From: Tausonia pullulans
Lineage: Eukaryota; Basidiomycota; Tremellomycetes; Cystofilobasidiales; Mrakiaceae
DNA: 64,000 nt
Assembly (NCBI GenBank): GCA_951802195.1
Contig: OX637637.1
Span: 579,766-643,765, forward strand
Direction: 5' to 3'
The notes below the pieces were generated by a model that was not told the DNA's origin, ran no database searches, and worked only from the letters and a program-made list of their open reading frames with translations. The position numbers and the translations under genes were made by a program. This document shows, piece after piece, positions 34,161-64,000 of this stretch (the stretch's first letter is position 1; each line of letters starts with the position of its first letter).

Positions 34161-34548
34161 TGTCAAGATCTAGCGGACTTGCCTCGACCCTACGCCTGGC
34201 CAACGCGGCACCAATAGCCTTTCCCTTGCTTGATCAGCATTCCCATTTCTTTATTTCTTTGTTGCCTCATCTGTCCCACACTCTTTGATTTCTAAACTTT
34301 CTCCTCACTCCCTTATTCTCATTACTCCCTTGTTCTCATCTCTCGTCCATAAAACGTTCATTTCATCGTAGATGTTGTTCTGCACTCTGGACCCGACAAA
34401 TCTGCCCAAGACCCTTAAGCGAGCCCGTGTCACCTCCATCACTTCAGTTCCCTTTCATCACCCGCCATTGTTCTCAGTACACTTCGTCACCGACGTCCCT
34501 CTCCTCGCCCAATTTTCTCTGCCATCGACCCTTGGGCCGATCCTAACA
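34161..34548 (+). mobile_element. Complete solo LTR with 5-bp target-site duplication
   Basis: A 388-bp element starting TGTCAAGATC and ending GATCCTAACA, that is TG...CA as in retrotransposon LTRs. The five bases before it (GAGTA) are repeated exactly after it (GAGTA, 34549-34553). That is the duplication length typical of Ty1/copia and Ty3/gypsy integration. It contains no open frame for reverse transcriptase or integrase. Related sequences occur at least five more times in the window. It sits between the ABC transporter promoter and the 3' end of the Zn2Cys6 gene. Confidence 0.85.
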
Positions 34549-52699: not shown

Positions 52700-53350
52700 T
52701 GTCAGGATCTCACAGATGCACCACTTACGTTCTGTGCCTATGTGGTTGTCAGAACCTCGCAGACCCGCCACCTCGGCCCCGCGCCTGTGAAGTGTTGCCC
52801 TTGCTTGCTCGGCTTCTATGTCCTCGGCCTCTCTTCCGCTAGACTGTTCCATATATTTTTTTCTCACCTCAGCCCATAAACGCTCAGTTTGTCATAAACT
52901 TTTGTTCTGCACTCTGACTATCATTTAGACTTGGACAAACTTGCCCCAGTGTCAGGATCTCGCGGACTTGCTACCTTGTTTCTGCGCCTAGCTAACTCTG
53001 TGCCTGTGAAGCCTCCTCCTTGCTTGCTCCGCATTTCCTCATCTTCGAACATTCTTTCACCACAATGGCTCACGCTCCTTGTCTCATTACTCTTTCCTCT
53101 CTTTCTATTCGTCATCTGTCCAACACCCTTTGTGTTCTCGCGCTTCTCATCCCTTCCCTTGTTCTTACCCCTGGTCCATAGAACGCTCAGTTCATCGTAG
53201 ATGTTGTTCTGCACTCTGACTATCATTTGGACCCGACAAACCCGCCCGAGACCCTTAAGTGACCCCGTGTCACCTCCACCACTTCAGTTTCACTCCATCA
53301 CCCGCCACCGCTCTCAATCCACTCAGACACCAACGCTCCCCTCCCCATCC
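52700..53350 (+). mobile_element. Compound of two LTR copies, the second abutting a truncated first
   Basis: A first copy starts TGTCAGGATCTCAC at 52700 and is interrupted after GACAAACTTGCCCCAG at 52949. A second copy, starting TGTCAGGATCTCGCGG at 52950, begins exactly there. The second runs through GTTGTTCTGCACTCTGACTA to about 53310 and then diverges. From about 52860 to 53310 it is nearly identical, in reverse complement, to 56790-56340. Confidence 0.7.
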
Positions 53351-59608: not shown

Positions 59609-60034
59609 ATGTCAGGATCTCGCGGACTTGCTACCTCGACCCTGCGCCTGGCCAACGCGGCGCCAGTGTAGCCTTTCCCTTGCTTGATCAGCATTCCCAT
59701 TTCTTTTTCCCTTTGTTGCCTCATCTGTCCCACACTCTTTGCTTTCTAAACTTTCTCATTACTCCCTTATTCTCATTACTCCCTTATTCTCATCACTCCC
59801 TAGTTCTCACCACTGGTCCATAAAACGCTCAGTTCATCTTAGATTTTGTTCTGCACTCTGACTATCATTTGAACCCGACAAATCTGCCCAAGACCTTGAA
59901 GCGACCCCGTGTCACCTCCAGCTCTGCAATTTCCACTCTGTCACCCGCCGCTGCTCTCAACAATCCACTCAGTCACCAACGTTTCCCTACTCACCCATCC
60001 TCCTTTGCCCTTGACCCTTGGGCCAATCAAAACA
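59609..60034 (+). mobile_element. Solo LTR without target duplication
   Basis: Starts TGTCAGGATCTCGCGG and ends GGGCCAATCAAAACA (TG...CA), 426 bp. Flanking pentamers (CCAGA before, TCGGG after) do not match, unlike the copy at 34161. Its left end coincides with the end of the duplicated block. Confidence 0.75.
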
Positions 60035-61459: not shown

Positions 61460-63707
61460 ATGTCCGATCTCAAGGCCTACAACCCCGACGAGCCATTCCC
61501 TCGGGTCCCGGACGATGAAGAGGCTATCAACCTCGCTCGCGACTGGACCGACGCTGAGGAGCGGCGCGCAAAGCGAAAGTGAGCATCGATACGGAGTTCG
61601 TGAGCGCGCGGGCTGCGTTCTGATCTTGATCTCTGCAGGCTCGACCTGATAATTCTTCCGATATTACTTCTTGGCTTCTTCTGTCTCCGTGAGTTGCTGC
61701 AAAGCGCTCGCGCGTGAGCCAGAAGCTCGGTGTGATGTGCAGCGCGTTTGCGCGCGCGCTACATGCCCGGCGTGATCCTTGCTGAGCCCATACTGATCAC
61801 ATTGACTCATTCTACAGAACTGGACCGCGGAAACATCGCGAATGCCCTTACCGACGGGTTTCTAAAGGACGTGAGTTGTGATTGATCAACACCTTCCTTC
61901 CTCGACAACCTCTGACCTCTCTTCGTATCTTGCAGGTCGGCATCAACCAGGATCAGTTCAACGTCGGGCAGCAGATGCTTTCGCTCGGGATCGTTCTCAC
62001 CGAGATCCCCGCCAACATGATTCTCTACAAGGTCGGCCCCGGAAAGTGGTTGACCCTCCAGCTCTTCCTCTTTGGTCTCGTCAGCACGCTTCAGGCCCTC
62101 CAGAAGGGCTACGGACCTTTCATTGCGACCCGATTCCTCCTCGGTATCACCGAGTCCGGCTTCATCCCTGGAGGACTCTGGACACTCTCCACCTGGTACA
62201 CTCGCGAAGAGACGGCGAAGCGCGTCATGATTTTCTACTTCGGGGTAAGTTTCTCGTCCTCCACGTCTTCCTACAGTCAATCAGAACGAGGAGGGCGCGA
62301 AAGCGGGGTTGGAGGGTTATCGAGGGACTGGTCGCACAATTTCCGACTTATCGCTGACGCTCGTTTCTCACGTCAGAACCAACTCGGTCAAGCCTCGTCT
62401 AAGCTCCTTGCCTACGGTATCCTGCACATGCGCGGAGTCGGAGGTCGCCCTGGATGGTTCTGGCTGTGAGTCGCGCTGCATCGAACCACCTCAAGTATCG
62501 TTGTGCTAACCCAGACTCCCCTGCCCTCAGCTTCGCTCTCATGGGACTCTTCACAATTGCTTCGGGATTTGTCTTTGGTCTTTTCCTTCCCGACTCGTTC
62601 GCCAAGCCACACTCCACCTTCCTTCCCCGCCGCCGCATCTTCACCGAGCGGGAGATTCACATTCTCCGTCAGCGAGTCATCAGCGACGATCCCCTCAAGG
62701 GCAAGAAGAAAAAGCACATTGATTTGGGCGCCTTCAAGCGAGCAGTGAGTCACCCAACACTCTCTTCTCTCTGGAGTACGTCTGATTGATCCTGATGGCT
62801 GCTCTTTTAGTTCACAAACTGGCGGCTCTGGGTTCACTTTGCGATCACACTTAGCAACAACGGCCCCCAGCGCGCTTTTGACACCTACTCGCCGACGATT
62901 GTCAGCTCATTCGGCTTCCCCGCCCTCTCTGCGAACGCGCTCGCGTCAGTCGGTCTATTCCTGCAAATCCCAAGTGAGTGTCTTGTTCTACTGTTTTCCC
63001 TACCCGTCTCTGACCTATTTTGGCAGCCTCCTTCGCATTCAGCTACTTCTCGGATCACTTCAACCGCCGCGGCGAGACCGTCCTCGCCGGCATGTTCCTC
63101 CACATGCTTGGATACATCTTCAACCGAGGTTTTTCTGGAACAGGACAGCCCCGTGGTGTGCGCTACTTTGGGTGAGAAAATTTGAGCCTCAAATGTCTGG
63201 GAATGAATTCATGCTGACATCGCTCAACTTCCAGTGTCGTTTGGACCCAGACCTTTGGCACGTTTTCCCACCCCCTTAATATCGCTTGGATGTCTCTTGC
63301 CTGCCGTGACTCCGAAGAGCGAGCGCTTGCCATGGCCATGGTCATCTCTGGTGCGAACATTGCGGGTATCTACGGTACGTCCCCTGCCTGCTTGCTTCGA
63401 ACGGTGGATGCACTAGATTCTGATTGCTTCTCATTTATCAGGTGCTCAAATCTTCCGTTCGGACGACAAGCCTCTCTACCTCCGAGGCTTTAGCGTTGCC
63501 ATTGCTGTCCTCGCGGCAGGTCTGGTACTGACCGCCGTCCGCTACTTCGACGACTTCCGCCGCCGTCGTAGGAGCACCATCGACGCCGCCCAAAGCGAGC
63601 ACAGCAGCGACGATGACGAGAAGGCCGACGCCGCAATCACCAGCGATGTCCAGCCAGCGCCAGTCGAGGTTCGCGATGGTGCTTTTTCCACCAACGTTGC
63701 CCGCTAG
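61460..63707 (+). CDS. MFS transporter, Dal5/Tna1 (anion:cation symporter) family
   Basis: Plasma-membrane permease for a small organic anion; relatives carry allantoate, nicotinate, pantothenate or biotin precursors. It starts MSDLKAYNPDEPFPRVPDDE with an acidic cytoplasmic N-terminus. TM1 is LIILPILLLGFFCLQLDRGN, containing the family's LDRGNI. The loop-2 region has QQMLSLGIVLTEIPANMIL and FLLGITESGFIPGGLWTLST with WYTREE. The middle loop is FTEREIHILRQRVISDDPLK. The second half has ITLSNNGPQRAFDTYSPTIV and a run of hydrophobic segments to LAAGLVLTAVRYFDDFRRRR. The Ser/Asp-rich tail ends in AR. About ten short introns. It appears intact, with twelve membrane segments expected. The substrate cannot be told from sequence; the nearby biotin-pathway gene makes biotin-related uptake worth testing. 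Confidence 0.9.
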
Positions 63708-63722
63708 TTAGATTTGATTTAT

Positions 63723-64000
63723 GTCGGTAGGTTGGGTCGGTAGGTTGGGTCGGTAGGTTGGGTCGGTAGGTTGGGTCGGTAGGTTGGGTCGGTAGGTTGG
63801 GTCGGTAGGTTGGGTCGGTAGGTTGGGTCGGTAGGTTGGGTCGGTAGGTTGGGTCGGTAGGTTGGGTCGGTAGGTTGGGTCGGTAGGTTGGGTCGGTAGG
63901 TTGGGTCGGTAGGTTGGGTCGGTAGGTTGGGTCGGTAGGTTGGGTCGGTAGGTTGGGTCGGTAGGTTGGGTCGGTAGGTTGGGTCGGTAGGTTGGGTTGG
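63723..64000 (+). repeat. 13-bp G-rich tandem repeat reaching the window end (about 21 copies)
   Basis: Unit GTCGGTAGGTTGG (equivalently GGTCGGTAGGTTG), perfectly repeated from 63723, just 16 bp after the transporter stop codon, to within a few bases of the end. The last unit is shortened to GTTGG. The strand running toward the right edge is the G-rich one, as for a telomeric G-strand. Confidence 0.95.

Follow-up and report, generated by a model that had tools for sequence, protein, structure and literature searches.

A three-word, 13-nucleotide repeat as the probable telomere unit of the basidiomycete Tausonia pullulans

The end of the window and its neighborhood

The window is a 64,000-nucleotide stretch of Tausonia pullulans DNA that corresponds to positions C18:579766-643765 of the genome assembly. 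Contig C18 is 643,765 bases long, and the end of the window is therefore also the end of the contig. Three features succeed one another along its right edge:

61460..63707, plus strand: MFS transporter gene, spliced by eye, 515 aa with an uninterrupted frame between ATG and TAG
63708..63722, no strand: spacer of 15 bp from the stop codon of this last gene to the first base of the array
63723..64000, plus strand: probable telomere array with the unit GGTCGGTAGGTTG, identified by TRF, by its position at the contig end, and by its recurrence at 33 of 40 ends

The transporter matches MFS_1 (PF07690, E 2.5e-28), and its best protein match has 75% identity over 98%. The best 120 of 459 matches are 68-77% identical over 86-100%; by name, these are mostly from ascomycetes, and some are called alternative sulfate transporter. 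Basidiomycetes contribute four of the same best 120 (Vanrija, Microbotryum, Kwoniella, and Cutaneotrichosporon). Judged from these similarities, the gene would be either well conserved or the product of a transfer between fungi. Farther inside the window, a 0.4-kb LTR-like element (TGTCAGG...CCTAACA) is found at 34161-34548, where GAGTA stands on both sides, and at 59610-60034. The element holds a 17-bp repeat, TTCTCAT(C/T)ACTCCCTTA, and related copies lie near positions 53144 and 56288 as well as at many of the chromosome ends examined.

The original prediction described a 13-bp repeat array at the right edge of the window, and the array is real: TRF reports a period of 13, 21.2 copies, and 100% matches at 63723-63997, and the repeat runs to the contig end. 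The array begins with a partial unit of 12 nt (63723-63734), continues with 20 exact 13-nt units (63735-63994), and closes with GGTTGG (63995-64000), an irregular unit in which register is lost at 63998. With up to two mismatches, the 13-mer matches 26 times in the window, as compared with a mean of 1.15 and a maximum of 5 in shuffled sequence. The G-rich strand of the array runs 5' to 3' into the contig end; the C-strand of the repeat is (CAACCTACCGACC)n. Each unit had been described as having four G-tracts, a count that needs correction, as a cyclic reading of the unit gives three (GGG, GG, and GG). No ordinary hairpin is formed in two G-strand units.

The repeat at chromosome ends

The genome comprises 23,855,473 bases (23.86 Mb) in 21 contigs. 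Chromosome ends were surveyed over 3 kb from both ends of contigs C1-C20, a sample of 40 end loci of which 38 are readable. The array is present at 33 of these 40 ends, with the G-strand directed outward in 33 of 33; 13 contigs carry it at both ends and the other seven at a single end. The end arrays contain 510 exact units and are 137-278 bp in length (median 215), values that are lower bounds, as the assembly may clip ends and a few inner irregular units are uncounted. All 33 arrays reach the last bases of their contigs, and the flanks directly beside them differ from one end to another. Four readable end loci each contain a single copy of an array variant, TTGGGTTGGG.

Within the end loci, matches to two consecutive units number 454 in the outward direction (209 at left ends and 245 at right ends) and 0 in the inward direction. 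The whole-genome counts of the two-unit pattern (245 and 209, with 0 for the reversed pattern) equal those of the end loci, so no two-unit array exists elsewhere in readable sequence; stretches of N fall outside this count. Tandem copies of TTAGGG, TTTAGGG, TTAGGGG, or TTAGG are absent from the 38 readable loci among the 40. The unit thus belongs neither to the TTAGGG type nor to its close variants.

Seven ends are array-free: two are N, three carry LTR-retrotransposon frames, one carries rDNA, and one is unexplained. The five with sequence are as follows:

C5, left end, and C9, right end: retrotransposon frames (gag; reverse transcriptase) up to the contig end
C11, left end: gag frame from 0.4 kb
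C3, left end: small-subunit rRNA within 3 kb
C8, right end: unexplained

A search of 10 of the 40 end loci also located a 115-nt small-subunit rRNA fragment at the left end of C4 (L034, 445-559), a few hundred bases from the telomere; this is apparently a stray piece of rDNA.

Unit architecture, telomerase, and alternative readings

Three related words make up the 13-nt unit: TTGGG, TCGG, and TAGG. A count over the final 300 nt of the 33 ends gives 1575 regular steps between words and 32 irregular ones (CGG to TT, 11; CGG to TC, 8; AGG to TC, 5; GGG to TT, 4; GGG to TA, 2; AGG to TA, 2). All six possible wrong GG jumps are represented in this sample, and CGG is the point of departure in 19 of the 32. 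The phase at the junctions with chromosomal DNA is uneven, with 14 of 33 junctions beginning GGTTG (8) or AGGTTG (6).

The genome encodes a telomerase reverse transcriptase. The telomerase RNA-binding domain (PF12009) is matched on the minus strand at C11:1159315-1159581 (E 2.2e-17), in a frame that passes one TGA codon. Exon pieces of this gene, stitched by eye, yield 16 PDB matches at E<=0.01 (best 3.6e-42), all 16 of which are named telomerase reverse transcriptase; taken singly, one of the seven pieces scores in Pfam. The stretch examined ends before the C-terminal part, and these matches cover part of the gene. An Emi1-like gene (C11:1144990-1145196) is located on the same contig, about 14 kb from the telomerase reverse transcriptase gene. 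A search for POT1 produced no match, and control searches were equally empty.

Very probably, the array of the window is the telomere that caps this arm of the chromosome, and GGTCGGTAGGTTG is the unit from which T. pullulans telomeres are built. Its presence at 33 of 40 ends, always with the G-strand outward, is what argues for a telomere rather than a minisatellite. The original prediction had offered the telomere as one reading, to be weighed by looking for the 13-mer at other contig ends and for TTAGGG-type repeats there. The outcome favors it on each count: the assembly has no sequence beyond the array, the 13-mer is shared by many ends rather than confined to one locus, and TTAGGG-type repeats are absent from the readable end loci.

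Three other explanations merit comparison with this reading. The best of them, itself improbable, is that recombination or slippage between words, and not telomerase, is the main means by which the terminal arrays are maintained. Chromosome arms do exchange DNA, as a 685-bp subtelomeric block common to two arms ends at a telomeric tract, and irregular units are also obtainable by slippage; yet a telomerase reverse transcriptase gene is present, the arrays are short with adjoining flanks that differ from end to end, and irregular steps make up only 32 of 1607. Still less probable is a subtelomeric satellite beyond which a different, true telomere was lost from the assembly at every end. No other simple repeat lies distal to the array at any of the 33 ends, where every array is terminal and in telomeric orientation, even though final bases are often missing from assemblies and the arrays, at 137-278 bp, are short. 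Almost no probability attaches to a transporter 3'-UTR minisatellite placed at the contig edge by chance: the array does begin 15 bp past the stop codon of an open reading frame, but a minisatellite fails as a general explanation for the same array in the same orientation beside different flanks at 33 of 40 ends, with no two-unit array off the ends in readable sequence.

If the arrays are telomeres, the RNA template copied by telomerase would slightly exceed 13 nt and would take in TTGGG, TCGG, and TAGG. The growing end may occasionally be released after one GG and re-pair at another GG, a process that would generate both shortened and lengthened units; slippage between words could also give the irregular steps. 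Because junctions often begin (A)GGTTG, they suggest that new telomeres start near the CCCAACC(U) side of the template, with its 3' side close to that sequence. The 19 of 32 jumps that follow CGG fit poorly with a template end at this position and would place the translocation point elsewhere, so that the two indications disagree.

Internal tracts, template candidates, and known telomeres

Six internal telomeric tracts of 18-25 nt are present in the genome, four of them within 10 kb of an end. An LTR copy contains the tract at C1:2168229, and a near-identical copy at the right end of C12 has the usual LTR sequence at the same place: between the flanks GACCC and CTAACA, the copy at the right end of C1 reads AACCTACCGACCCAAC and that of C12 reads TTGGCCAATC. 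Comparison of the two copies shows that telomeric DNA replaced a few LTR bases at the right end of C1, a replacement that would most simply have arisen at a repaired break. This tract is the one of the six of at least 18 nt in which interstitial insertion is demonstrated against an empty copy. The 685-bp block common to two arms, with 86.6% identity, has the tracts C7:5003 and C16:796815 at its edge.

When the four tracts close to ends are set aside, eight sites of at least 15 nt were found, versus about 0.8 expected by a hand estimate from base composition. Pattern matches of 12-13 nt number 16 at such sites and 10 in the control (our own count); as these show no clear excess, the excess of internal sites derives from the longer matches alone. 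The telomeric 15-mer CCAACCTACCGACCC occurs at three internal sites (C6:1238117, C7:328551, and C15:9436), by eye in an intron on C6 and in a 5' UTR on C7. They may be insertions that have decayed, or they may bind a telomere protein with a second role at genes.

Telomerase RNA was sought with eight patterns that join the repeat core to the base that breaks the array, with an estimated coverage of only about 75% per search for some template boundaries. The template-like sites include the following:

C3:504267-504289, 23 nt: 5 nt past the stop codon that closes an open frame; the longest site far from an end
C5:945347-945364, 18 nt: 5' UTR of an RCC1-like gene (by eye)
C7:5003-5024, 22 nt: within 10 kb of an end
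C7:8049-8072, 24 nt: within 10 kb of an end
C1:2168229-2168252, 24 nt: within 10 kb of an end
C16:796815-796839, 25 nt: within 10 kb of an end
Shorter sites (15-16 nt): on C2 (beside a tRNA gene), C4, C6, C7, C14 (in an intron, by eye), and C15
C4:1243448-1243462: ends at an apparent splice site (by eye)

Each of 18 sites was also given a junction test, which asks whether its 3' flank explains the bases that precede the junctions. By template match and junction test together, none of the 18 was accepted as a telomerase RNA gene. The best junction result belongs to C4:1243448-1243462 (p=0.0032 uncorrected, about 0.06 corrected for 18 sites); L089 and L097 give p values of 0.006 and 0.0076 that are driven by variant units, and the other 15 sites give p >0.10. 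Rfam detected no telomerase RNA in six loci, and the 523-aa frame beside the C5 site has no match among 7996 candidates scored. PF11326, which we take to be the family containing Emi1, has a single match in the genome, on C11. The 3' UTR of Emi1, considered as a telomerase RNA site after the Ustilago arrangement, was rejected, as no 16-mer of the 3.2-kb locus matches the repeat with 2 mismatches or fewer.

In the available portions of PMC10100673, motifs are given for 21 basidiomycetes and are mostly TTAGGG, in agreement with the original prediction that most basidiomycete telomeres are of this type; the variants named there (TTAGGA, TTGGA, TTAGTG, and TTAGGGGG) are 5-8 nt long. TTAGGG is also reported, in sources available in part, for Rhodotorula pacifica and Microbotryum. 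The T. pullulans arrays resemble basidiomycete telomeres in their terminal tandem repeats, outward G-strand, and accompanying telomerase gene; in contrast, their 13-nt unit lacks TTAGGG and is longer than the 5-8-nt basidiomycete repeats named in the portions of the literature surveyed (PMC10100673).

Long units are found in budding yeasts (e.g., 25 nt in Kluyveromyces lactis and 23 nt in Candida albicans, according to the accessible text of PMC12134996). As in these yeasts, the unit described here is long and nearly uniform and would need an enlarged template, whereas its sequence is different and consists of three short G-words instead of one long irregular unit (PMC12134996, same portion). 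Outside the budding yeasts, units of comparable length (11-12 nt) are given in excerpts on Aspergillus (TTAGGGTCAACA, 12 nt; PMC10100673) and Bombus (TTAGGTTGGGG, 11 nt; PMC10767889), and the Bombus unit likewise sets short G-words in a row. The T. pullulans unit differs from both in sequence and lineage and in having three words and 13 nt.

The telomerase RNAs of Ustilago and Malassezia derive from coding transcripts, as described in the available sections of PMC12506658 and PMC10035886. The candidate template at C3:504267-504289, 5 nt past a stop codon, is similarly placed, whereas the templates described in those sections serve 6-7-nt repeats; unlike the Ustilago locus, the Emi1-like locus here has no template-like stretch.

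No published report of the 13-mer was found in searches of research papers that covered some of its rotations, and the 13-nt unit is likely a new telomere motif. Telomere repeats change rarely; the RNA template and the repeat-binding proteins must change together. A long unit built of words in a basidiomycete would provide a case, independent of budding yeasts, for the study of template growth and of the accompanying change in binding proteins. Few basidiomycetes have a known telomerase RNA, and the 13-nt unit should ease the finding of this RNA by sequence, given a related genome or RNA reads. A basidiomycete lineage may have enlarged its telomerase template to specify the three-word repeat (TTGGG TCGG TAGG), with hopping between GG sites, telomeric patching of internal breaks, and perhaps a template RNA in a protein-coding transcript; this combined proposal is tentative, and we place it slightly below an even chance.

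The remaining contig, C21 (L071, 18,821 bp), looks mitochondrial from the 10,000 bases examined. Among the best 120 of 4825 matches to its nad5, three have 51-53% identity over 64-75% of the query, and the species-named matches, presumably mushrooms, have 37-39%; by this protein comparison the lineage looks poorly sampled. The G+C content of C21 is about 50% in the 10 kb examined, and a value of about 50% is high for fungal mitochondrial DNA.
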